This document shows, one piece after another, positions 1 to 23,179 of a DNA stretch of 25,773 bases. The stretch's first letter is position 1; each line of letters begins with the position of its first letter. The translations under genes and the position numbers were made by a program. The notes beneath the pieces were generated by a model. It had not been told where the DNA came from. It did no database searches and worked only from the letters and a program-made list of their open reading frames with translations. Origin of the DNA: a virus; the IMG/VR virus record IMGVR_UViG_3300012920_000232, positions 1-25,773 of that record; one strand, given 5' to 3'.

Positions 1-1407
1 GCAAACGGATTTACTGGTAGTTTCTCAGGAATCCAAGAGATGACCGATGTGGAAATCGGTGATACTTTTGGTCGTAGGATGGGTAGTAGGGTCATGAACT
101 CTACAAATGGTGTTGGTGCTTACTTAATTAAAAGTGCAACTCAGGGTGCGCCTAGTGAAACTGGTACTTGGGTTGCTATGGGGACTGCCACAGATACAAG
201 GCAGGGGACAGTCAATACAGATTATACTAGGAACTTTACAAGAACCAGAACATCAAATTATGGTGAAGCATTTACCAGAGATTTCGCAGGTAATTACATA
301 GGTAACTTTACTGGAGATTATACCAGAGATTTTATAGGTGACTATTCCAGAAACTATGAGGATGATTATCAAAGAACATCTACTAGAGACTCTACAGTAG
401 ATAGGTCAAGCACATACACCAGAACTTCGACAAGAACTAGAACCTCTTCATATACCACAGACTTCGAAGGTAATTACGCAAGGAACTTTGAAGGTAATTA
501 TGCAAGAAACTTCAGTGCTGATTACACCAGAACTTCAACTAGAACAAGGTCTAGTGCTGATGGTACGACATATACTGGTAACTACACTGGGGACTTTACA
601 GGTAACTATGCAACAAACTACTTAGGGAATGCCGCCTATACTGGTAACTTTGGGGGTAACTTCGCAGGTAACTTTGCTCGTAACTTCTCTGCAAACTATG
701 CTCGTGCTTTTACTCGTGCTAGAGCAGTTACCTATACTGGTAACTTCTTAGGTGACTATTCCAGAAGTATTTCTACTTTTTATGGCGTTCTTACAACTGC
801 TTACACAAGAACTCGTGTAACAAACTATGTTGGTAACTTTACAGGTAACTATGCAAGAAATTATCTAGGTAACTATGCTCGTGCATATACCAGAACTTCG
901 ACAAGAACTTCGACAAGAACAAGTAATAACGCAGACGGTACAACATACACAGGTGACTTTACAAGAAATTCAACCAGAACATCAAGCACGAATTTCTTAG
1001 GGAATGCTGATTACGCAGGTAACTTTACAGGTAATTATGAGGGTAACTATGCTAGAAACTATAGTGCTAATTATGCGAGAAACTATGTTGCCACATACAC
1101 TGGTGATTTCACTAGAGACTTCGCAGGTGATTACACAGGCAACTATGCAAGAATATTTACAGGTAACTTTGCAGGTGAATTCTTAGGTAATTACATAGGT
1201 AATTACTCTCGTGATTTCACAAGAACTAGAACATCAAACTATACTAGAGATAGTCAACGAGATAGTCAAAGAACCAGAACATCAAGTTATTCTGAAACTT
1301 TTAGTAGAAACTTTGAAGGGAATTATACAGGAGATTTTGCAGGGACAACAATTAGTAACTTTATAGGAAGTGTAGAAACATATACTCTATATCTAAGAAC
1401 TGCATAA
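1..1407 (+). CDS. Tetrapeptide-repeat fibre-like protein (5' truncated)
   Basis: The reading frame is open from the first base, so the gene starts upstream; the ATG at 40 is probably internal. Residues encoded from about 223 to 1371 are an almost unbroken run of four-residue units of the form aromatic-x-(G/R)-(N/D/T), such as YTGN, FAGN, YARN, FTRD and YTRT, with serine/threonine-arginine blocks (STRT, RTSS) between them. I count roughly 95 units with only a few slips in register. There is no enzymatic motif, cysteine cluster or transmembrane segment. Regularly spaced aromatic residues suggest an elongated beta-structured fibre shaft. The place beside other fibre genes and ahead of the neck genes supports a tail fibre or other adhesin-like virion protein. 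The fibre role is inferred; the repeat is seen directly. The C-terminus ends with a short non-repeat tail, VETYTLYLRTA. Confidence 0.75.
   Translation, partial: ANGFTGSFSGIQEMTDVEIGDTFGRRMGSRVMNSTNGVGAYLIKSATQGAPSETGTWVAMGTATDTRQGTVNTDYTRNFTRTRTSNYGEAFTRDFAGNYIGNFTGDYTRDFIGDYSRNYEDDYQRTSTRDSTVDRSSTYTRTSTRTRTSSYTTDFEGNYARNFEGNYARNFSADYTRTSTRTRSSADGTTYTGNYTGDFTGNYATNYLGNAAYTGNFGGNFAGNFARNFSANYARAFTRARAVTYTGNFLGDYSRSISTFYGVLTTAYTRTRVTNYVGNFTGNYARNYLGNYARAYTRTSTRTSTRTSNNADGTTYTGDFTRNSTRTSSTNFLGNADYAGNFTGNYEGNYARNYSANYARNYVATYTGDFTRDFAGDYTGNYARIFTGNFAGEFLGNYIGNYSRDFTRTRTSNYTRDSQRDSQRTRTSSYSETFSRNFEGNYTGDFAGTTISNFIGSVETYTLYLRTA
223..1371 (+). repeat. 12-bp coding tandem repeat (tetrapeptide units)
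   Basis: About 95 tandem 12-bp units encode aromatic-x-(G/R)-(N/D/T). Units differ mainly at third codon positions and by Phe/Tyr, Gly/Arg and Asn/Asp swaps. The register slips at only a few places (residue pairs AA and AD, and a TTA triplet). Because the unit is a multiple of three, other frames also stay open in patches; these are by-products of the repeat. Confidence 0.9.
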
Positions 1408-1410
1408 ATA
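1403..1410 (+). promoter_or_regulatory. Late-promoter-like box CATAAATA
   Basis: One mismatch from the T4 late promoter consensus TATAAATA. It overlaps the stop codon of the fibre gene and lies about 39 bases before the next start. A second imperfect box, TATAAACA, follows at about 1423. It could drive the 1449 gene, the glycosyltransferase and the oxygenase. AT-rich sequence makes chance matches likely. Confidence 0.35.
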
Positions 1411-1448: not shown

Positions 1449-1901
1449 GTGGCAGATAGAAAATGGTTAGATAATGCTTTTTGGGAGACTCCCAGAAAAC
1501 ACATTCTAAATTGTATTAGTGAAGAAGACCTTGGTGGAAAGACCAGAAGGCAAGTTCACAAACTAGATAAATTTAATTCAGATGGAACAGAAAATGTACT
1601 CTTCAAGGAGTGTGTAGACTTCCTTGGGGTTGAATCAATTGATGCTTCTACTAAAAGAAGATATGAGACAAAAGCAAAAGAAGCAGAACTTAACAAACAA
1701 AGAAAACTTGAAGAAGCAAATTCTAAAAAGTTAGAAAAACTTTTCGAATACAAACTTGAAACTTTTGAGATTCCAGAAATCAAGGAATCAAAGAATCGTG
1801 CGTTGAAAAGTAAATTGCGTAGGTCTAAGTCAATACCTGAAGTAAATCTTTATGCTATGATGCTCGTGAAGGAATCGATTGAAAATGCAGAACAAGAGTA
1901 A
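1449..1901 (+). CDS. Basic coiled-coil protein of unknown function
   Basis: A 150-residue protein starting at GTG, chosen because AGGAG at 1438-1442 sits six bases upstream. The N-terminus has a distinctive WLDNAFWETPRKHILNCI segment. Residues about 70-105 are rich in K, E, L and A with heptad character and probably form a coiled coil. A basic stretch (KSKLRRSKS) follows, then a short helix. No catalytic motif is visible. It lies immediately after a fibre gene, so a fibre assembly chaperone or small virion protein is possible, but nothing in the sequence proves this. Its 3' end overlaps the glycosyltransferase start, implying translational coupling. Confidence 0.7.
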   Translation: MADRKWLDNAFWETPRKHILNCISEEDLGGKTRRQVHKLDKFNSDGTENVLFKECVDFLGVESIDASTKRRYETKAKEAELNKQRKLEEANSKKLEKLFEYKLETFEIPEIKESKNRALKSKLRRSKSIPEVNLYAMMLVKESIENAEQE

Positions 1902-2628
1902 AGGATTTGTAATAGTTGCATCCAGAAATGTAAACTTTTACAAATATGCTTGTAACTTGATTTCAGGTATTCGTGATTTCTATGAAGACGCAAATATAAC
2001 TCTTGTTACTGAACCAAGATTTCTTGATGACAATCATGAAGCAGACAATGTAATACATTGTGATAATCACTATCGTGCCAAACTATGGGGTATGGCACAA
2101 TCTCCATATGATATCACGATGTATCTGGATGCTGACATGGATTGTGAACATGAGGATATCATTAAAGTTTGGGATGAGATGAAAGACTATGATATGGTGT
2201 TTCATCAATTGACTCAAGAAAGGGAAAAGTTTTATGCAATACGAGAGTTTATATATGATGGTGGTATAGAGAAGTATACTTTATGTGGTGGGGTTTGTTT
2301 GTACCGTAGTGAGAATCCTTTGGTTATGGAGTTTATGTCTGATTGGTATGAATTATTTGTTCAACAACAAAGTAATCATTGGCAACCAAAAGGATTTGAT
2401 GAATCACAATGGAACAATGATTTGAAACACTTTGACCAAACAACCCTTTGGTGGTTAACAGAAAGAGTAGACAAATACAAAGACTTAAAGATAGGTATAT
2501 TTGAAGATGATATAAGATGGAATTATTTTTCGCAGTATGCTCATGAAGGATTGAAATCTAAAGAAGGTAAACCACCTATCTTGAGACACTACTCAGGTTC
2601 TTTGAAAAAGGATGTGTTATTAGTATGA
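1885..2628 (+). CDS. GT-A fold glycosyltransferase-like protein
   Basis: A protein of about 247 residues. It begins with a beta strand of the type expected for a nucleotide-sugar binding fold (GFVIVASRN). At residues 79-87 it has a hydrophobic strand ending in a DxD motif (MYLDADMDC; D82 and D84), the usual metal/nucleotide-sugar ligand of GT-A enzymes. A CGGV segment and two WW/WQ-rich acceptor-side regions follow. No transmembrane segment is present. Known GT-A enzymes transfer a sugar from an NDP-sugar to an acceptor; donor and acceptor here are unknown. AGGA at 1870-1873 lies 11 bases before ATG 1885 and 5 before an in-frame TTG at 1879, so the start could be two codons earlier. It overlaps the previous gene and shares ATGA with the following oxygenase-like gene. 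Modification of fibre proteins, DNA or a host surface glycan are all open. Confidence 0.65.
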   Translation: MQNKSKGFVIVASRNVNFYKYACNLISGIRDFYEDANITLVTEPRFLDDNHEADNVIHCDNHYRAKLWGMAQSPYDITMYLDADMDCEHEDIIKVWDEMKDYDMVFHQLTQEREKFYAIREFIYDGGIEKYTLCGGVCLYRSENPLVMEFMSDWYELFVQQQSNHWQPKGFDESQWNNDLKHFDQTTLWWLTERVDKYKDLKIGIFEDDIRWNYFSQYAHEGLKSKEGKPPILRHYSGSLKKDVLLV

Positions 2629-3296
2629 TGAAAGATATCCCAATAAACAATCAAGAAGTTTTAGATGGTTTAAATAATTTCTTATGGATGTATGATGAAA
2701 GGGAAGAAATACAAAAGAATTTTCGTTTACATTCACAAGGTGCAGATAAAGATTACTTTACAGGTGATGAATACCGTGATATAATAGTTAAGCAAGATAC
2801 CCAACATGAGGGTTACCCTGATGAAGGGAGAAACTATAATATGAAACCAACCCAGATGGAAAAGGGTGAAAATCCTAATCCAGACTATGTTGCCAAAGCA
2901 ATTAGTAACTGGACAAAATATTCAACTAATTTACAAAATATTTTGTGTACAAGATTTAATGCATTAACAGTATTATATCCACCTGATGGGTTTCTTTCTT
3001 GGCATAATAATTGTAATGCGTCTGCTTACAATTTAGTGTTTAGTTGGTCTGAGACTGGTGATAGTGATTTTAGGTATATGGATACTGAAACAGGTGATAC
3101 TGTCATCATGAAAGATGTAAAAGGATGGCAATGTAAGGCAGGATACTTCGGTTCATATACTGACCCATGGACTCAAAGAGTGTATCATGCCGCTCGAACT
3201 GACTGTTGGAGAATGACAGTTTCCTTTATGTTTGACCGAAGTGCCATGTCTGAAGGCATTCAAGATGATGTAATTAGTGAAATAATGTTAAAATAG
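2625..3296 (+). CDS. 2OG-Fe(II) oxygenase-like protein with HxN motif
   Basis: A 223-residue protein whose ATG overlaps the glycosyltransferase stop (ATGA); a second ATG follows directly at 2628. The C-terminal half resembles the double-stranded beta-helix of 2-oxoglutarate/Fe(II) oxygenases. It has a first metal-ligand region GFLSWHNN (H127, N129), a core strand region YNLVFSWSETGDS, then the distal histidine and 2OG-binding arginine in VYHAARTDCWRMTVSF (H188, R196). The canonical HxD reads HxN here. That may be a family variant or may alter iron chemistry. Related proteins in phages are thought to hydroxylate proteins, nucleotides or glycans; the substrate is unknown. Its coupling to the glycosyltransferase suggests successive modification of one target. 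Confidence 0.55.
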   Translation: MMKDIPINNQEVLDGLNNFLWMYDEREEIQKNFRLHSQGADKDYFTGDEYRDIIVKQDTQHEGYPDEGRNYNMKPTQMEKGENPNPDYVAKAISNWTKYSTNLQNILCTRFNALTVLYPPDGFLSWHNNCNASAYNLVFSWSETGDSDFRYMDTETGDTVIMKDVKGWQCKAGYFGSYTDPWTQRVYHAARTDCWRMTVSFMFDRSAMSEGIQDDVISEIMLK

Positions 3297-3365: not shown

Positions 3366-3734
3366 ATGGCACTAACGAATTACGAAGACATAGTTATAAA
3401 TCAAGGCACAGACACCGCAATAGAGATTCACTTACAACATGATAGTGGGTCTGCCTTTGATTTGACTAGTAGGTCTGCATCTGCGAAAATGAAAAGAAGA
3501 TTCGCAGATTCGGCAAATGACCCAGATACCGTTGCATTTAATGCAATCATTGCGACTCCACCCCAATCAGGAATCGTAACTCTATCCTTGACAAATACCC
3601 AAACTGATGCTCTTAAAACAAGAGGAAGGTATGTATATGATGTAGAGATATCTCACACAGATAGTGATGGGAATACAATCATCCAAAGAGTATTAGAGGG
3701 ACAAATAGAAGTGTCTCCTTCGGTAACAAAATAA
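3366..3734 (+). CDS. BppU-like N-terminal-domain virion structural protein
   Basis: A 122-residue protein, all beta in character, with a pattern I associate with BppU-like/Ig-like virion proteins of marine T4-like phages. It opens with DIVINQGTDTAIEIHL, then a DLT-Y/R-type strand, an alanine/lysine strand (ASAKMKRR), an SGIVTLSLT strand, and finishes with GRYVYDVEIS and a VLEGQIEVSPSVT strand. This fold links baseplate or receptor-binding parts in other phages. It is preceded by a perfect late promoter and followed nine bases later by the giant fibre gene, so it is probably a fibre-attachment or baseplate-periphery protein. The start has only a weak upstream GGA. The family call rests on remembered pattern, not on a search. 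Confidence 0.7.
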   Translation: MALTNYEDIVINQGTDTAIEIHLQHDSGSAFDLTSRSASAKMKRRFADSANDPDTVAFNAIIATPPQSGIVTLSLTNTQTDALKTRGRYVYDVEISHTDSDGNTIIQRVLEGQIEVSPSVTK

Positions 3735-3743
3735 GAGGTAGGT

Positions 3744-6700
3744 ATGACCGAAAAAATAGTTGTCAAGAAGGTTATAGTAGGCACACCTGTCAAGAAAGTT
3801 ACGGCAGGTTCTTTTGCTATCACAAACCTTGGTGGTGTAAATGTCACTGCTACAGAAAGTGATGGTTCTATACTTGCCTTTAAAAAGACCACCCAGAATT
3901 ACGAAGTAACAAAACTTACTGGTGATAGTGCATCTATACATGTTGCATTTGATAGTGCAAACAGTGAATATGTATTCTCACTTGTAGGTAACAGAATTAA
4001 TCAAAGTCTGATTCCAGATACAGATTCCGCATATGACCTAGGTGCATCCGATAAGAAATGGAAAGACCTTCACCTTAGTGGGGGTACAATAAACTTAGGT
4101 GGTCTTAGAATAAAAGACCAAAATGGTACATTTGTCGTTTCAGACAGTAGTGGAAATACTTTATTACAAAACACTAAATTTATCTCTGTCAAAGGTGACA
4201 CGGATATTCTTGCGTATGATAGTTCAACATCAACAATAACATGGAATGATTCAGATGTAGCAAGAACAGATAGAATCGAAACATTCCACAAAGCAATTAA
4301 AGTTACAGACAGTGCAGAGATTACAAGCAATCTGACTGTGGGTGGTAACCTGAATGTAACAGGTGACCTCGTATATGATGATATGACTGCTGACTCCGCA
4401 ACCTTTAGTGGAAGTGTTGCGATTGGAACGAACCTAAGTGTAGGTGGTAATCTAAATGTCGCAGGTGATTTAGTCTATGATGACATGACTGCTGATAGTG
4501 CCACATTTGCAGGTACAGTTTCAGTAGGTACAAATATTACATCACCATTAGGTCGTATTGTCAACCTTACTGGTGATTCTGCCACAGTCACAAACATTGC
4601 AAATACCCAATTTACTGGGTCTCAAGCAACGATTGATTCTGCTGATATTACCACACTTAAAGTTGGTAATCTAGTAGTAACAAGTGGTGACTCTGCTACA
4701 ATTACAAACATTGCTAACACACAGTTCACTGGTTCTCAGGCAACCTTTGATTCCGCAAATATAGGTGGAGTCTCTATTGAGAACAATAATATTACTACCG
4801 AAGGTAAGATATATTATGCTAATGTGTTTAACAATGAGGGAGACCTTCCAAGTGCAGATGCCTATCACGGTATGTTTGCCCATGTCCATGGAACTGGTCG
4901 TGGATATTTCGCACACGGTGGAGCATGGCATAGATTAGTTGATTCATCAATGACTGATGAACAACAAGTATTCAGATTATTCTCAAGTAATGCTAGAGTT
5001 ACAAATGCACAGATTGATAGTGCCACAGTAACTAATCTAGCAAATACTCAGTTAACAGGTTCACAAGCAACTTTTGATTCTGCGAACATTGGTGGTGTAT
5101 CAATAGAAAACAATAATATCACCACGAGTGGTAAGATATACTATGCTAATGTATTCAGTTCTGAAGGAGACTTGCCAAGTGCAAGTGACTATCATGGTAT
5201 GTTTGCTCATGTGCATGGAACTGGTAAAGGTTACTTTGCACACGCTGGTGCATGGCATCAACTATTAGATAAGTCAACTGCTAATGACAGTGCGACAATA
5301 ACAAATCTAGCAAACACACAATTCACTGGGTCACAAGCAACAATTGACAGTGCAGATATCGGAACTCTAAAAGTTACTGGTAATGCTTCTGTTGTAGGTA
5401 ATCTAGATGTTACTGGTGACCTAAACTTTGATGATGTAACTGCTGACTCTGCATCCTTCAGTGGAACAGTATCAGTCGGAACAAATGTTACATCACCTAA
5501 TGCAACAATAACAAATATTACAAACACACAATTGACAGGTAGTCAAGCAACTCTTGATTCTGCCACAATTACTAACATTAGGTTCGATAATGTAGATGCA
5601 CAGACAACTACAACTATTAGAAACTTATTCTCTGCATCTGGAGACCTATCATATGATAGTGCTTCTGGACAGTTCTCGTTTGATGTAGAATCTGTTTATA
5701 CTAAGGCAAACTTTGATAGTGACCTTGGTGATGCAAACACAGGACAACTTCCAGAAGGAACTAACCTCTATTATACTACTGCAAGAGCAGATAGTGCTTT
5801 TGATGTAAGACTTGCTACCAAATCAACAAGCAATCTAGCAGAGGGTTCAAACCTCTATCATACCGTAGAAAGAGTACAAGATATCGTAGGTGCTATGGTA
5901 TCGTCTAATACTGAGAGTGGTATTAGTGTAACTTACGAAGATGGAGATGGTACTTTAGACTTTAATGTCAATGACCCAACACTATCCTACACAGGAGATG
6001 TGACTGGTTCTGGAACTATGACCGACCTAGGCAATACTAGTATTGCTATGACTATTTCCGCAGGTGCGGTAGACAATGATATGTTATCAGGGTCAATCGC
6101 AAATGCTAAACTTACAAATTCAACTATTACAGTTTCAGATGGTTCAAATACAAGTCCAATAGCATTGGGTGGTACTCTAACATTCTCTGGAACAAGTAAT
6201 GAAGCAACTGTTGCAGAAAATGCAGGAACAATAACAGTAGGATTACCAAGTGATGTCACAGTATCAAATGACTTAACTGTTAGTGGTAACTTGAATGTTA
6301 CTGGTACTACGACTCAAACTGGTTCTGTGGTAACTGATAACAACTTCCAAGGTCTAACTAACTCTAATACAGGAAACGCAACTGACTTTGGTTTCTATGG
6401 TAAGTATGTAGAATCAAGCACAACTAAGTATGCAGGTATTTACTACGATGCATCGACAGACAACACATTTAGATTATTTACAGATACCCAAACAGTACCT
6501 TCAACAACAGTCAATACTGGTGCTACAGGTTATGCTGATGCAAATCTAGTTGTTAACAATATAACAGGTAATGATTTAGTTCTGTCAGGTAATCTGACCG
6601 TCAATGGGACAACAGTAACTAACAGTGCTACCAATACAACTATCGAAGATGCATTGATAGAACTTGGTTCTGGTAATACTGGAGCAAACTCTAATGACCT

Positions 6701-7883
6701 AGGTCTTATTCTTGAAAGAGGAACAACTGGTGATAATGTATTCTTAGGTTGGGATGAGAGTCAAGATAGAATTGTTTTCGCAACAACAACTGCGACTGGT
6801 GCATCGACTGGTGACCTAACACTTACAGACGCAATTATACAAGCATCAAGACTGTTCGGTAATGTAACTGGTGCATTAACAGGTAATGCTGATACTGCAA
6901 CAACTCTTGCTAATGCTAGAGACTTTAGTATCACAGGTGGTGATATTACTGCCAATGCCATATCATTTGATGGTTCAGGTAATGTCGCATTAAGTGCATC
7001 AATAGATGCAACTGGAGTTGATTCAGGTACATATGGTTCTGGTTCATTAGTCCCAGTATTTACAGTCAACGCAAAAGGACAGATTGATAGTGCAGGAACA
7101 GTTTCCGTTGCAGGTGTCTCATCGACATCTTTTGATAGTGCAACTAATAAATTCACAATTAACACTGCTGATGGTAATAGTTTTGTTACTACAGTAGCAT
7201 CAAGATTCTCTGCAATACCTGATAGTGACCTTACATTATCAAGTAATACTATAAGAGCAAATGACCTTTTTGTAGGTAATCTGCATGTAGACTCCGCAGA
7301 TATTATTAAGATAGCAAGAGATAATCTATCGATTGCTGATGCAGGTGGGGACGGTTCGTTTGCTTATGATAGTGCATCTGGACAGTTTACATATACAGGC
7401 CCAAGTGCATCCGAAGTAAGAGCGCATTTCTCCGCAGGTGGAGACTTAGTATATAACAGTGGAACTGGTGAGTTCTCCATATCAAGACCTGAGATTGATT
7501 CGGCAGGAGTTAGAGCATTAGTATCTGTAACAGATGCAGGTGGAGATGGTTCACTCGCATATAATAATAGTACAGGAGTGTTCACATATACAGGGCCTAG
7601 TGCTTCAGAGGTAAGAGCGCATCTGACCGCAAACAAAGGTTTATCTGTATCATCTGGTGAATTTAATATTGACTCTGCCAATGTGAAAGGTATGTTTAGT
7701 GCTACTGGATTTGGATATAATTCAGGAACAGGTGCATTCACTGTAACTGGACAGAATGTAATGGACTTAATTAAGACTGTGGATTCTAATGGTTCTGGTT
7801 TGAATGCTGATACTCTGGACGGACAACAAGGTTCTTATTATCGAATCGATGTATTTAATGCTTCAGGGTCACTTCTGAACTAA
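3744..7883 (+). CDS. Giant repeat-rich tail fibre protein
   Basis: A 1379-residue protein starting at ATG after AGAGGTAGGT. It is rich in D, S, T, G, N and A and nearly free of cysteine. Its repeated short motifs are typical of marine T4-like phage fibres: GNLNVTGDLVYDDMTADSA (twice), NTQFTGSQAT-(F/I)DSA (several copies), NLYYTTARADSAF, and GPSASEVRAH (twice). Two copies of a GDLPSA-x2-YHGMFAHVHGTG module form part of a tandem duplication at 4689-5285. The C-terminus carries NADTLDGQQGSYYR, a motif often seen near the tips of phage fibres. It should form a long trimeric beta-structured fibre for host contact; trimerisation and receptor are inferred. It stops just before the neck gene 13. Confidence 0.88.
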   Translation: MTEKIVVKKVIVGTPVKKVTAGSFAITNLGGVNVTATESDGSILAFKKTTQNYEVTKLTGDSASIHVAFDSANSEYVFSLVGNRINQSLIPDTDSAYDLGASDKKWKDLHLSGGTINLGGLRIKDQNGTFVVSDSSGNTLLQNTKFISVKGDTDILAYDSSTSTITWNDSDVARTDRIETFHKAIKVTDSAEITSNLTVGGNLNVTGDLVYDDMTADSATFSGSVAIGTNLSVGGNLNVAGDLVYDDMTADSATFAGTVSVGTNITSPLGRIVNLTGDSATVTNIANTQFTGSQATIDSADITTLKVGNLVVTSGDSATITNIANTQFTGSQATFDSANIGGVSIENNNITTEGKIYYANVFNNEGDLPSADAYHGMFAHVHGTGRGYFAHGGAWHRLVDSSMTDEQQVFRLFSSNARVTNAQIDSATVTNLANTQLTGSQATFDSANIGGVSIENNNITTSGKIYYANVFSSEGDLPSASDYHGMFAHVHGTGKGYFAHAGAWHQLLDKSTANDSATITNLANTQFTGSQATIDSADIGTLKVTGNASVVGNLDVTGDLNFDDVTADSASFSGTVSVGTNVTSPNATITNITNTQLTGSQATLDSATITNIRFDNVDAQTTTTIRNLFSASGDLSYDSASGQFSFDVESVYTKANFDSDLGDANTGQLPEGTNLYYTTARADSAFDVRLATKSTSNLAEGSNLYHTVERVQDIVGAMVSSNTESGISVTYEDGDGTLDFNVNDPTLSYTGDVTGSGTMTDLGNTSIAMTISAGAVDNDMLSGSIANAKLTNSTITVSDGSNTSPIALGGTLTFSGTSNEATVAENAGTITVGLPSDVTVSNDLTVSGNLNVTGTTTQTGSVVTDNNFQGLTNSNTGNATDFGFYGKYVESSTTKYAGIYYDASTDNTFRLFTDTQTVPSTTVNTGATGYADANLVVNNITGNDLVLSGNLTVNGTTVTNSATNTTIEDALIELGSGNTGANSNDLGLILERGTTGDNVFLGWDESQDRIVFATTTATGASTGDLTLTDAIIQASRLFGNVTGALTGNADTATTLANARDFSITGGDITANAISFDGSGNVALSASIDATGVDSGTYGSGSLVPVFTVNAKGQIDSAGTVSVAGVSSTSFDSATNKFTINTADGNSFVTTVASRFSAIPDSDLTLSSNTIRANDLFVGNLHVDSADIIKIARDNLSIADAGGDGSFAYDSASGQFTYTGPSASEVRAHFSAGGDLVYNSGTGEFSISRPEIDSAGVRALVSVTDAGGDGSLAYNNSTGVFTYTGPSASEVRAHLTANKGLSVSSGEFNIDSANVKGMFSATGFGYNSGTGAFTVTGQNVMDLIKTVDSNGSGLNADTLDGQQGSYYRIDVFNASGSLLN
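4689..5285 (+). repeat. Tandem duplication within the fibre gene
   Basis: Copy one starts at 4689 and copy two at 5016, a spacing of 327 bp (109 codons). Both encode DSAT-(I/V)-TN-(I/L)-ANTQ-x-TGSQATFDSA, then IGGVSIENNNITT, GKIYYANVF and a His-rich YHGMFAHVHGTG-(R/K)-GYFAH segment ending in AWH-x-L-x-D. Copy one has an extra tail of about 24 residues before the second begins. A third partial unit (the DSAT-ITN part only) starts at 5286. Synonymous differences are numerous, so the duplication is not recent. Confidence 0.85.
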
Positions 7884-16289: not shown

Positions 16290-16646
16290 ATGTTAGAAGA
16301 AAATGAAGTACAACCTACTGAAGAAGTAGTAGAACCAAATGCAGTAGAAGACTTAATCAACCAAATCAGTGTTGGTGAGTTGAATAAAGCAGAAGGTTCT
16401 TTTAAATCAATCATTCAAGATAAAATGAATGATGCATTGAACGCACAAAAAGTTGCAACGGCAGGACAAATCTTCAATGATGAAGATGAGGACATTGCTG
16501 ATATTAGTGACGAAGAAGTAGAAGAGTTCTTTGCAGACGCAGATATGTCTGAAGAAGAGTTCGATGCTGAAATGGACGAACTAGAAGCAGAGCAAACGGA
16601 AGAGGAAAGTGCTGACGAAGATATCGAACCTACTGACGAAGTTTAA
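16290..16646 (+). CDS. gp67: Acidic prohead core protein (gp67-like)
   Basis: A 118-residue, strongly acidic protein. Residues about 18-63 (VEDLINQISVGELNKAEGSF, then IIQDKMNDALNAQKVATAGQIF) resemble the conserved segment of T4-like gp67 prohead core proteins. The remainder is almost all D and E. The gene position directly after gene 20 matches T4. The start ATG at 16290 is chosen because GGAG at 16280-16283 has six-base spacing; an upstream in-frame ATG at 16260 lies inside gene 20 without support. The product would be an internal scaffold component, later degraded by gp21. Its 3' end overlaps the desaturase start by 38 bases in another frame. Confidence 0.78.
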   Translation: MLEENEVQPTEEVVEPNAVEDLINQISVGELNKAEGSFKSIIQDKMNDALNAQKVATAGQIFNDEDEDIADISDEEVEEFFADADMSEEEFDAEMDELEAEQTEEESADEDIEPTDEV

Positions 16647-17367
16647 CGACTTCTTACTTGTCAACACAGGTAAACTACTACTAAGTGTGTTCTGGGGATG
16701 TCTTGCGTATTTAATATATGATATTGCATACCTTGGCAACTGGCAAACACTTTTGTGGTATCCCTTTGTTGCATTTATAGGTTGGGTAGTAATCTCTGCT
16801 TTTTATCACAGGGCATTGGCACATCCATCATGGGAATGTCCTGATTGGTTAAAATATCCATTCGCATTCTTTGCGCCTGGATTGGGAGTTACTCCTGCGA
16901 TTGTCTGGTGTTCTTTACACAGAGAGCATCACAGACATTCAGATATCGAAGGTAAAGACCCTCACGGGCCTGCCTACAGTTGGTGGAAGAATTTACATAT
17001 ACTTCTATACAATCCGAAGTTTATGTATTCAAAGAACCTACTGAGAGACCCACTCATGGTTGCTCAGATGAAGCAATACTGGAGTTGGTTTCTAATATCA
17101 GTAGCATTCTTTATATCGGTATTCGGTGCTAGTGTATGGGCATTAATGGTTGTTGCATTGACCGCAACACAGATTAGTATCAATATGTTAGGACACTATC
17201 CGATTGGACAAGAACGAAAACAAAACATAAAACAACACATACTCAGTTTAATATACACACCAGAAATATATCACGGACAACATCACGATACACCGAATAG
17301 AGCAAAATTAGGTGCATTTGATGTAGTTTACTACACTTTAATAAGGTTTTTTCCACATAAGTCCTAA
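16609..17367 (+). CDS. Membrane fatty acid desaturase
   Basis: A 252-residue integral membrane di-iron desaturase. All three histidine boxes are intact: HRALAH (67-72), HREHH (104-108, followed by R and H) and HGQHH (222-226). A further H196 in NMLGHYP matches the extra ligand seen in acyl-CoA/acyl-lipid desaturases. Hydrophobic segments at about 22-43, 47-66, 84-103 and 158-194 fit the usual four-helix topology. It would introduce a cis double bond into a fatty acyl chain, probably of the delta-9 class; regiochemistry is inferred. The only start is GTG 16609, close to a GAAGAGG ribosome site and within the end of the gp67-like gene. No in-frame Met occurs before residue 139. It interrupts the usual gp67-gp68-gp21 order and is a likely auxiliary metabolic gene altering host membrane lipids. 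Confidence 0.85.
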   Translation: MLTKISNLLTKFNDFLLVNTGKLLLSVFWGCLAYLIYDIAYLGNWQTLLWYPFVAFIGWVVISAFYHRALAHPSWECPDWLKYPFAFFAPGLGVTPAIVWCSLHREHHRHSDIEGKDPHGPAYSWWKNLHILLYNPKFMYSKNLLRDPLMVAQMKQYWSWFLISVAFFISVFGASVWALMVVALTATQISINMLGHYPIGQERKQNIKQHILSLIYTPEIYHGQHHDTPNRAKLGAFDVVYYTLIRFFPHKS

Positions 17368-17643: not shown

Positions 17644-18306
17644 ATGAAACTGATTACAGAATTTACAGATAACAACACTCTTAACTGTCTCGTAGAAAAG
17701 AAAGAGAACGGTGAGAAGAACTATGTTATCGAAGGTGTCTTTGCACAAACAGACACAAAGAACAGAAATGGTCGTGTTTATCCAAAACCAATTATGGAAA
17801 AGGCAGTTGCCAAATACGACCAAGAACAGATTTCTAAGAACCGTGCGGTAGGTGAATTGAATCACCCAGAAGGCCCAACGGTAAACTTAGACAAGGTTTC
17901 GCATCTCATCAAGGAACTCAAATTTGAGGGAAAAGATGTGGTCGGAAAGGCACAAATACTTGATACTCCTATGGGTAAGATTGTAAAAGGTCTCCTAGAT
18001 GGTGGTGTTCAATTAGGTGTGTCAACTCGTGGTATGGGTAGTCTTGAACAGAGGAATGGTGCAATGGTCGTCAAAGACGATTTTATTCTTAGCACTGTTG
18101 ACATTGTGCAAGACCCATCTGCTCCAGAAGCATTTGTTAATGGTATAATGGAAGGAGTAGATTGGGTTTGGGATAACGGCATTCTGAAGGCTCAAGAAAT
18201 TGAAAAAATGGAGACTGAAATTAAAAACGCTCCTCGTGCGTTTCGTCCAGAAACGCAAATTAGAGAGTTTAAGAATTTCCTCTCGTTAATTAAATCTAGC
18301 ATGTAA
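17644..18306 (+). CDS. gp21: Prohead maturation protease gp21
   Basis: A 220-residue protease close to T4 gp21 length (212). The conserved blocks are KNRNGRVYPKPIM (39-51), GELNHPEGPTVNLDKVSH (70-87) with candidate catalytic H74, LGVSTRGMGS (124-133) with candidate nucleophile S127, and STVDIVQDPSAPEA (150-163). It assembles inside the prohead and cleaves the scaffold and capsid proteins after sequences of the form (I/L)-x-E. An IRE near its own C-terminus (QIREFKNF) could be a self-cleavage site. It lies between the small basic gene and scaffold gene 22, as in T4. Confidence 0.95.
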   Translation: MKLITEFTDNNTLNCLVEKKENGEKNYVIEGVFAQTDTKNRNGRVYPKPIMEKAVAKYDQEQISKNRAVGELNHPEGPTVNLDKVSHLIKELKFEGKDVVGKAQILDTPMGKIVKGLLDGGVQLGVSTRGMGSLEQRNGAMVVKDDFILSTVDIVQDPSAPEAFVNGIMEGVDWVWDNGILKAQEIEKMETEIKNAPRAFRPETQIREFKNFLSLIKSSM

Positions 18307-18316
18307 GGAGTCAAAT

Positions 18317-19423
18317 ATGACTGAAGAAGTAAAAAATGATGAAGTCATCGAAGAAACGACTCACGATGAAGTTGTTAACGAAGAAATCGTGGATGAAACT
18401 CTCGATGAGCAGAAAGTAGAGAAAGAGCCTATGACTGCACAGAAGAAAAAAATGATGGCACAGAAAGAACCAGATGGCGCTGTTTCTGAACCAGAATCTA
18501 TTGCTTCCGTGGATAAGGCAGCTGATGCTACTAAAGCAAACCAAGCTCCTGCACCGAAAACTAAAGCAGGTATGATTAGTGCTATGACTAGCAAAATGTT
18601 GAAAATGTCTAAAGCAGACATGGAAAGCATGTATGCTCAGTATAACAAAGAGTCAGTAGAAATGGAAGAAGATGAAACAATTGCTGAACAACCAGTGATT
18701 GATACTACTGCTGAACTTGATGCATTAGTCGAGTCTGAGGCGACACTCAGTGATGAGTTCAAAACCAAGACTGCCGTTATTTTCGAAGCAGCTGTAAAAT
18801 CTAAATTGTCAGAAGAAATTGACAGATTAGAAGAGCAGTACAAGGATGAATTAGAAGCAGAAGTATCTGCAACTAAATCTGAACTTGTAGAGAAAGTAGA
18901 CAACTACCTAAACTATGTAGTTGAGACTTGGATGGAAGACAATAAGGTTGCAGTACAAAACGGTCTTAGAACCGAAATTGCTGAATCCTTTATGGACAAA
19001 TTGAAAGACTTATTTACTGAGTCTTACATTGATGTTCCAGAATCCAAGGTTGACCTAGTTGATGAACTGTCTGACCAAGTAGAAGAACTTGAGACTAAAC
19101 TCAATGAATCTACTCAGAAAATCATTGACGCTACTGGTGAATTGGAAGGTTTTAAAAGGGATGAAATCATTCGTGAAGCATCCAAAGACCTTGCTGACAC
19201 ACAGGTAGAAAAGTTAAAGTCACTCGTTGACGGATTCGATTTTGACGATTCTTTTGAATCAAAAGTCGCAACTGTTAAAGAGTCACACTTTAGCAAAAAA
19301 GAAACTTCGTCTGAGGAAGTTCTTGAAGAAGATGTAGATGCAGAAGACACAACTACTGTAGAAACATCTGAAAGCATGGACAGGTATCTTCAGGCAATCA
19401 GAAAAACCGCTCGTAGAGCATAA
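18317..19423 (+). CDS. gp22: Prohead scaffold protein gp22
   Basis: A 368-residue, acidic, strongly helical protein with long coiled-coil stretches (for example SEEIDRLEEQYKDELEAEV and LSDQVEELETKLNESTQKI). It ends with YLQAIRKTARRA, a basic tail like those that contact the capsid shell. The first 100 residues are low in complexity (E, D, V, K, A, Q). It is longer than T4 gp22 (269 residues). It forms the prohead core around which gp23 assembles and is then destroyed by gp21. AAGGAG precedes the ATG, and gene 23 follows after 20 bases. Confidence 0.92.
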   Translation: MTEEVKNDEVIEETTHDEVVNEEIVDETLDEQKVEKEPMTAQKKKMMAQKEPDGAVSEPESIASVDKAADATKANQAPAPKTKAGMISAMTSKMLKMSKADMESMYAQYNKESVEMEEDETIAEQPVIDTTAELDALVESEATLSDEFKTKTAVIFEAAVKSKLSEEIDRLEEQYKDELEAEVSATKSELVEKVDNYLNYVVETWMEDNKVAVQNGLRTEIAESFMDKLKDLFTESYIDVPESKVDLVDELSDQVEELETKLNESTQKIIDATGELEGFKRDEIIREASKDLADTQVEKLKSLVDGFDFDDSFESKVATVKESHFSKKETSSEEVLEEDVDAEDTTTVETSESMDRYLQAIRKTARRA

Positions 19424-21812: not shown

Positions 21813-21837
21813 CATTTTACGCTACATAGTGTATAAT
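21809..21837 (+). promoter_or_regulatory. Consensus sigma70 promoter for the methyltransferase
   Basis: Exact TTGACA (21809-21814), 17-base spacer, exact TATAAT (21832-21837). Transcription should start at about 21843-21845, essentially at the ATG 21845. It lacks the palindrome of the other two island promoters but shares their TTGACATTT start. Confidence 0.85.
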
Positions 21838-21844
21838 GGTCGTT

Positions 21845-23179
21845 ATGAATCAAGAATTATATGCTCTTCTAGGTAAGTGTGCAGATAGCACTGGTCTTCC
21901 TGTTATGGATGAGACCCAGTTTACCGATGTCACAGAACGGTATGGTAAGGATGTCTTTAGAAAGACTCTTGCTGAATATATCTTTCAAGAGAGACCACCA
22001 TTTCCTGCTAATCAGGTTACTGAGAAACGCAGGGACGATGCGTGGTGGAAACTAAAACAATACGATATCTGGAAGGGTGTCACCCATATTAATAACCAAC
22101 AAAGGGAAGTCATTGAGAAGTTTGATGACTACAAGTATCCCTTTAGTGAACATGGACTAGGAGTAATCGATGCTCCTGCTAGACCTTATAATGATGTATC
22201 TGATTGGTTTATGAAACCCCTGCGTTGGCAGTGTAACAGTTACTCATTCAAAGCACCTCTCACCGTATGGAACGAAGGAACTGCTCATGAGATATGGGCA
22301 TGTCTTGGTGCTATATGGAGAGGTATAAACGATGTCAAGAAAGTCACAGTCCGTGACCTTGATGGGAATGAAAAAGATAAGTTGGTCGGTGGTGTCTTGC
22401 AACAAAACTCGTATGTTGCTACCTTCCGTTTGGCAACATACATTGCCACCCAGTTCAAACCCAGTATGGCAAAGACCATCTATCAGATGACTAATGCCAA
22501 AAGAGTTCTTGATACATCTATGGGTTGGGGTGATAGACTTACAGGATTCTACGCCTCAGACGCAGAAGTTTATATTGGATGTGACCCCAACCCTAATACC
22601 TTTGACAAGTATCATGATATGATACCATACCTAGAGAAGATGTCTGGTAAGCAAAAGACTGTCCATATGTTTAACTGTGGTGCAGAAGACCTACCATGGG
22701 ATAGAATTACAGACATTGATTGTGCCTTTACATCACCACCGTACTTTGCTACAGAAAGGTACAACGAAGGTGGTAAGAATGAGGATGCACAATCGTGGAA
22801 GAAGTTCTCTGAATATGAGCAATGGAGAGATGATTTCTTCCTACCAGTATCACAAAAAACCTTTGATTCACTATCTAAGGATGGTCATATGATTATCAAT
22901 ATCATGAATCCAAAGGTAAAGAATGTAGTCTATCCGTCTTGCGATGAGTTAGTAGACCTGCTCAGACCCCATTTTAAGGGTCAGATAGGGATGCGTATCA
23001 TGCAAAGACCACAGGGTAAGTCTGTATTCAAGGACGAAGAAGGTAACTTCGATAAGGAGCAACTACAGGATTTCTTTGACCAAATGTACATTGAGAACTG
23101 TTGGTACTTCGGAAAAGAGGACACACCAGACATATTTTTGAGGGCAGAAAAAAACAATTTAGATGATTTTTTCGCTTGA
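21845..23179 (+). CDS. DNA methyltransferase (SPPY type)
   Basis: A protein of about 444 residues with a class I SAM-dependent methyltransferase core in its second half. It has motif I VLDTSMGWGDRLTGF (221-235), an acidic strand end YIGCDPNP (243-250), NCGAEDLPW (277-285) as motif III, and catalytic motif IV DCAFTSPPYF (292-301). A (T/S)PPY tetrad is typical of amino-methyltransferases acting on N4-cytosine or N6-adenine in DNA; target and base are unknown. The order is motif X-like region, I, then IV. The first 200 residues show no known domain. An in-frame ATG at 21836 overlaps the -10 box and is unlikely. ATG 21845 would be almost leaderless with no ribosome site; a later Met at residue 21 is an alternative. 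It may protect phage DNA from host restriction or mark host genes. Confidence 0.82.
   Translation: MNQELYALLGKCADSTGLPVMDETQFTDVTERYGKDVFRKTLAEYIFQERPPFPANQVTEKRRDDAWWKLKQYDIWKGVTHINNQQREVIEKFDDYKYPFSEHGLGVIDAPARPYNDVSDWFMKPLRWQCNSYSFKAPLTVWNEGTAHEIWACLGAIWRGINDVKKVTVRDLDGNEKDKLVGGVLQQNSYVATFRLATYIATQFKPSMAKTIYQMTNAKRVLDTSMGWGDRLTGFYASDAEVYIGCDPNPNTFDKYHDMIPYLEKMSGKQKTVHMFNCGAEDLPWDRITDIDCAFTSPPYFATERYNEGGKNEDAQSWKKFSEYEQWRDDFFLPVSQKTFDSLSKDGHMIINIMNPKVKNVVYPSCDELVDLLRPHFKGQIGMRIMQRPQGKSVFKDEEGNFDKEQLQDFFDQMYIENCWYFGKEDTPDIFLRAEKNNLDDFFA

Follow-up and report, generated by a model that had tools for sequence, protein, structure and literature searches.

The stretch of viral DNA analysed here, 25,773 nucleotides of IMG/VR record IMGVR_UViG_3300012920_000232 (hereafter the window), begins inside a gene for a protein built in large part of tandem tetrapeptides. 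Sequence comparison indicates that this array and the domain that anchors it form a previously unnamed phage protein family, outside the families described in Pfam, PHROGs and the PDB. We assign the protein to the phage tail appendages, as one with an unusual repeat and a dedicated gene cassette. The explanation that we prefer, and to which we would give somewhat less than an even chance, is that the protein forms an adhesion arm on the virion of a T4-like marine myovirus, and that its units are hydroxylated and glycosylated by the products of its own cassette.

Period and Extent of the Repeat

The window holds the 3′ two thirds of the array gene at positions 1–1407, where the plus-strand frame is open and ends with a stop at 1407, the left edge of the window cutting the gene; the remaining five frames each contain 16 to 66 stops. 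This visible frame comprises 468 residues. Following the gene upstream, as a first-pass annotation made from the letters alone had proposed, was possible through a near-identical locus (L002, 97.8% nucleotide identity to the window), in which the gene is complete, with its start 609 nt before the counterpart of window base 1, and encodes a protein of 669 residues. The features of the window are collected in Table 1.

Table 1. Location of the array gene, its cassette and the adjoining features in the window, with the evidence for each.
Feature	Position	Strand	Remarks
Anchoring domain, 3′ end	1..201	+	About residues 204-270 of the full protein; outgoing strand GTWVAMGTATDTR last; L002 match, family conservation
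Tetrapeptide array [F/Y]-x-[G/R]-[N/D/T]	202..1380	+	393 residues (residues 68-460 of the visible frame); segmentation, period test
Closing C-terminal strand YTLYLRTA and stop	1381..1407	+	Family motif ETYTLYxR; confident strand in the AlphaFold2 model
CATAAATA, candidate late promoter (T4-type) of the cassette	1403..1410	+	Motif count in the window not above chance
150-residue cassette protein	1449..1901	+	Charged, probably helical; directly after the array gene
Glycosyltransferase-like protein	1879..2628	+	Invariant Y-x-D-x-D (DxD); conserved C-terminal H-x-S and K; alignments A1, A8
2-Oxoglutarate/Fe(II) oxygenase-fold protein (predicted)	2625..3296	+	Conserved H127-x-N129, H188, R196; AlphaFold2, fold search
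L-shaped tail fibre assembly homologue	3366..3734	+	phrog_1084, phrog_3304; context, not array-specific

Segmentation from residue 65 onward gave 98 four-residue units with 12 off-unit residues; F/Y occupies unit position 1 in 72 of the 98, G/R position 3 in 72 and N/D/T position 4 in 83. Within the array itself (residues 68–460), 66 of 71 distances from one aromatic to the next are divisible by four, whereas 20,000 shuffles averaged 12.8 such distances and never exceeded 28, which confirms that the four-residue period of the window protein is real and far above chance. The first-pass count of about 95 tandem tetrapeptides with an aromatic every fourth residue and few slips in register is thereby borne out, as is its view of a four-residue period within a tail and fibre gene cluster, unlike the repeats of the neighbouring 3744 fibre. 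Two details needed correction. The first 67 visible residues are not repeats and form the end of a conserved domain, the array proper covering residues 68–460; and the G-N and R-D/T units, described as alternating, occur instead in blocks.

The Array Family Across Viruses

Scanning IMG/VR with the window array protein returned 39 loci, and scanning with its glycosyltransferase-like neighbour returned 331 relatives, the best 80 of which were examined. The array family is carried mostly by uncultured marine viruses of bacteria, and the complete members share a common plan: an anchor domain of about 270 residues, the array, and a C-terminal ETYTLYxR or a close variant of it. Array length, inserts included, ranges from 165 to 3,080 residues in 34 non-redundant members, and the highest number of units in one protein is 527. 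Loci L085–L089 have merely 4–7 strict unit pairs, keeping the aromatic at every fourth residue in places. Several arrays are interrupted by non-repeat inserts of roughly 60–140 residues, for which a search of Pfam returned no match. In the window's group two array genes of the same architecture stand in tandem (4057–7383 and 7392–9401 in L002). The sister gene is split into three frames in one locus (L022, 3791–7353) and intact in another (L021), probably reflecting a sequencing or assembly error.

An array protein is carried by one of 50,697 phage records, that of C48C1 (OQ984149.1, unclassified Kyanoviridae), which is also the only record matched by the anchor domain. Its CDS0201, annotated only as a hypothetical protein, has the same anchor domain, a tetrapeptide array, an ETYTLYVR end and the same order of cassette genes. 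It differs from the window protein in its length of 3,347 residues, in its several non-repeat inserts and in its occurrence as a single long array gene, in the whole C48C1 group, with no tandem sister. The inserts of this protein (L041, 2647–12690), without a Pfam match, may be receptor-binding modules. Searches by sequence of Pfam, PHROGs and the PDB gave nothing above the cut-off for the array protein, and no match for the anchor domain.

To probe for a cellular origin, a five-unit DNA pattern was scanned over 84,980 prokaryote genomes. Only one real array was found among the matches listed, on a 142-kb contig in a Sphingobacteriales metagenome-assembled genome (L189; JAAXIF010000028.1). Since this contig carries the array gene beside the whole phage cassette, it probably represents phage DNA, either misbinned or from an infection, and the idea of a cellular origin was rejected. 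The other matches that we looked at turned out to be 12-bp minisatellites, short and almost without mismatches, or stretches of low complexity.

The Anchor Domain and a Candidate Hairpin

The anchor domain contains a module of the form GVYKLGSSxP...VFxDTR-(~12 residues)-YxLYxK. A similar pair of elements flanks the array, with GxYxLRSSxQGAP..GTWxxxGTAxDTR directly before it and YTLYxR directly after it. When the pre-array part and the tail were cut at fixed positions (alignment A4), hhalign matched the module to the two together with E 1.2e-5 and a probability of 81%, and to the tail alone with E 2.5e-4, as against 10% or less for other parts of the anchor domain. A motif-anchored version of this duplication test (E 1e-6) is biased, its ends having been picked by motif, and the position-cut version was used in its place; a further, third module inside that domain (IGTYTDT..TTTSLYQR) was not significant.

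The single-chain AlphaFold2 model of the L002 protein is confident for the anchor domain and approximately the last 20 residues (pLDDT ~86–94), while residues 280–646 lie below 50 and the array at ~23–38, so that the regular structure implied by the first-pass annotation was not obtained from it. On the simplest account the array fills the loop of a duplicated beta-hairpin, and both of its ends would then be held by one domain. The internal sequence duplication and the model together suggest that the array is the giant loop of a single beta-hairpin whose ends lie in the anchor domain, and the confidence values and the duplication point to contact between the C-terminal strand and that domain. 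With the full model as query, Foldseek found nothing at E <= 0.001 in the PDB or BFVD, and a fold likeness to perforin-2/MPEG1 region 376–578 (VIA Z 5.5 over 121 residues, 5.1 Å, model range 42–669) was too weak to be retained.

Autocorrelation over 34 arrays reaches 0.19–0.27 at multiples of four, stays near the random level of ~0.10 at lags of 2 modulo 4, and falls to 0.03–0.04 at odd lags, a pattern that stems in large part from the period itself. Of the off-period distances between aromatics, 6 and 10 occur more often than 7 and 11, with 1, 3 and 5 also present; the keeping of a two-residue alternation across slips is a tendency and not a rule, and fits an extended beta-type chain. Lysine (0.2%), proline (0.65%) and cysteine (0.01%) are scarce in the 34 arrays, and methionine and histidine nearly absent. 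A mirror test of outgoing against returning array halves revealed no pairing signal, which counts against the arm that we favour. N-x-S/T sequons are frequent (1,058 in the 34 arrays) and were considered as N-glycosylation sites; S/T two places on is commoner after a position-4 T than after N, giving no sign of sequon selection, and this candidate was dropped.

Length Change and Selection

The 12-bp DNA repeat, which the first-pass annotation saw as inviting slippage or recombination, proved weak: what Tandem Repeats Finder recovered was confined to patches holding 2.1 to 3.7 copies, and where neighbouring units have identical residues, the codon is the same in 23 of 51 cases, compared with 26.5 expected from codon usage. 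The period is maintained at the protein level, and the DNA repeat of the window is degenerate. The array measures 393 residues in the window and 391 in each of its two nearest relatives, L002 and L003 (the latter with 87% nucleotide identity to the window). Given these near-equal lengths and the divergence of the DNA units, ongoing slippage in the window gene is unsupported. At the scale of the family, the expected change in length is evident, unit number being far from constant among relatives and array length varying ~19-fold over the range given above. Between two loci that are 99.9% identical (L093 and L095), the difference in length is exactly 72 bp, equal to six units, and lies at a long direct repeat; collapse in short-read assembly could also account for it. 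The dN/dS of the array between the window and L003 is ~0.28 (0.1055/0.3738), indicating that its amino acids are under purifying selection.

The range of lengths, together with the very low AlphaFold2 confidence over the array and the non-repeat inserts inside several arrays, would be expected of a flexible disordered spacer, an entropic brush on the virion that spaces inserted domains, has no fixed fold and is nearly neutral in length. However, the purifying selection argues against near-neutrality, thousands of units that keep an aromatic at every fourth position are untypical of disordered spacers, and the low confidence may reflect an array that cannot be aligned as much as disorder. We regard a disordered spacer as quite improbable.

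A Cassette That Travels with the Array

Downstream of the array gene, the 150-residue protein, the glycosyltransferase-like protein and the oxygenase-like protein follow in a fixed order, succeeded by the L-shaped fibre assembly gene, and all loci whose sequence reaches far enough downstream keep this order. The 150-residue protein is perhaps an assembly factor. The designation of the second protein as glycosyltransferase-like rests on D84 and D86, invariant in 30 sequences and corresponding to the DxD metal/sugar-nucleotide motif of the GT-A fold, and on weak hits to Pfam GT2, obtained for 14 of 30 members with a best E of 0.0014, the protein of the window falling below the cut-off. Profile searches of the PDB with this protein gave nothing credible.

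In the best 80 of the 331 loci with this putative glycosyltransferase, all 80 carry both the 150-residue protein and the oxygenase, and 79 have an array or ETYTLY protein upstream, the remaining one (L051) ending at a contig end; when these best 80 are clustered at 95% identity, each of the 42 clusters has an array or ETYTLY protein alongside. Each of the three cassette proteins matches C48C1 only among the 50,697 phage records, compared with 77 records for the fibre-assembly neighbour, which ties the glycosyltransferase-like gene to the array and not to the fibre. It is single-copy in six long genomes.

The model of the third protein (pLDDT 93.2) predicts the double-stranded beta-helix fold of 2-oxoglutarate/Fe(II) oxygenases, with a Foldseek E of 1.3e-5 and VIA Z of 10.7–11.4 over ~150 residues against a list of prolyl hydroxylases and other 2-oxoglutarate oxygenases. 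H127, N129, H188 and R196, candidates for the iron triad and for the basic residue that would bind 2-oxoglutarate, are invariant in 16 or 17 sequences, an asparagine standing where D/E is usual in the iron triad. PHD2 and the Pseudomonas putida P4H share this predicted fold at ~7–13% identity, and differ in having H-x-D instead of H-x-N. The likeness to prolyl hydroxylases is a mismatch for modification of the array, which is almost without proline; an oxygenase acting there would have to act on a residue other than proline, and proline is probably not its substrate. One or two oxygenase paralogues lie elsewhere in five of the six long genomes, away from arrays, so that the substrate need not be the array. 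In C48C1 (L358), one such paralogue (18267–18920) directly follows the tail tube gene, and another is found at record position 40130–40792.

These paralogues are among the observations that would suit an unmodified trimeric tail fibre, in which three chains would be wound as a regular beta shaft that repeats every four or eight residues, while the enzymes would act on something else, such as DNA, the host envelope or the downstream fibre. It is established that phage fibres are as a rule trimeric, and the strict four-residue period and the position of the gene among fibre genes are equally in keeping with such a structure. On the other side, the putative glycosyltransferase and the 150-residue protein occur only with arrays and do not accompany the fibre-assembly gene in its 77 phage records, and the closing strand looks like one of the strands of the anchor domain, not like a tip domain. 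A trimeric fibre without modification is a serious competitor that we nevertheless consider unlikely.

Genomic Setting and Lineage

The cassette is followed by genes for L-shaped fibre assembly, a fibre, a head-tail adaptor, the portal and the capsid, which places the array gene in the tail and fibre gene cluster, as would be expected of a phage tail fibre. The L-shaped tail fibre assembly genes of cyanophages and pelagiphages (phrog_3304; Mosig EXVC030M, P-HM2) sit in the same neighbourhood and include a homologue of the gene at 3366–3734, but these phages are without the array, the glycosyltransferase-like protein, the 150-residue protein and an oxygenase of the window type. In its terminase the window shares 77% identity with C48C1 and ~45% with cyanophages, which points to T4-like marine myoviruses of a separate lineage. 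ATAAATA cores occur six times, on the plus strand in every case (1404, 3321, 7886, 12310, 17397 and 23891) and mostly shortly upstream of ORF starts, and suggest T4-type late promoters, their count alone not being above chance. By eye, an ORF in the structural cluster (16609–17367) with HRALAHP, HREHHRHSD and HGQHHD looks like a fatty acid desaturase, and another (21836–23179) with a TSPPY motif looks like a DNA methyltransferase.

Synteny with structural genes suggests that the array protein is located in the virion. A secreted or intracellular product made late in infection would be compatible with the sources used, in which no proteomics for this lineage was found; against such a product stand the structural-cluster synteny in every locus and the tandem sister gene with the same architecture, and we judge it very improbable.

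Discussion

A literature search for a tetrapeptide-repeat tail fiber of a bacteriophage returned no paper. A likeness is offered by glycan-coated fibrils with linear tetrapeptide repeats reported from fresh water (CryoSeek II, PNAS 2025, as cited in PMC12967142). The array resembles these glycofibrils in being a long protein of tetrapeptide repeats, and differs, in a comparison made by description only, in being almost devoid of proline, phage-borne and seemingly anchored at both ends. By analogy with the glycofibrils, we propose that the phage array may bear a glycan coat. There is precedent for glycans on phage particles: in mycobacteriophage virions the capsid and tail tube proteins are glycosylated at their C-termini (Freeman et al., 2023, as summarised in PMC12619734). 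Glycosylation is here a prediction only, and it would concern a tetrapeptide arm with a dedicated cassette adjacent to it in place of capsid and tail tube C-termini.

The adhesion arm that we favour takes its period, family plan, closing motif, cassette linkage and length range from the sequences and its hairpin topology and oxygenase fold from the models; virion location, modification and host contact are what we infer from these. The ~270-residue domain would anchor the protein, probably at the tail. The last beta-hairpin of this domain would be opened, an array of hundreds or even thousands of residues replacing a loop of about a dozen, and the array would return to the domain via the C-terminal strand. 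Between its ends the array probably runs as an extended beta-type chain, which has the aromatic and G/R residues on one face and the small and polar residues on the other. The oxygenase would likely hydroxylate Asn/Asp or another residue of the unit, Asn/Asp at position 4 being a guess, and the glycosyltransferase-like protein would likely act on Ser/Thr/Tyr or on the hydroxylated residue. Units modified in this manner could give a stiff, soluble, sugar-coated arm that reaches the surface layers of the host.

A broader reading can be put forward, although we think it rather doubtful: that the family represents a class of appendage new to viruses, in which tens to hundreds of tetrapeptides form the giant loop of a beta-hairpin, the phage's own enzymes hydroxylate and glycosylate each unit in turn, and the number of units sets the length of the arm. 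Such an appendage would be a viral counterpart of the environmental tetrapeptide glycofibrils.

The repeat, unmatched in the protein libraries searched, and the two-enzyme cassette strictly linked to it define an unnamed phage family, and relatives of the glycosyltransferase-like protein are present on hundreds of viral contigs. If the enzymes do modify the array, these phages would build an appendage as a sugar-coated tetrapeptide fibril, and this would provide a concrete viral candidate for the tetrapeptide fibrils of environmental cryo-EM.
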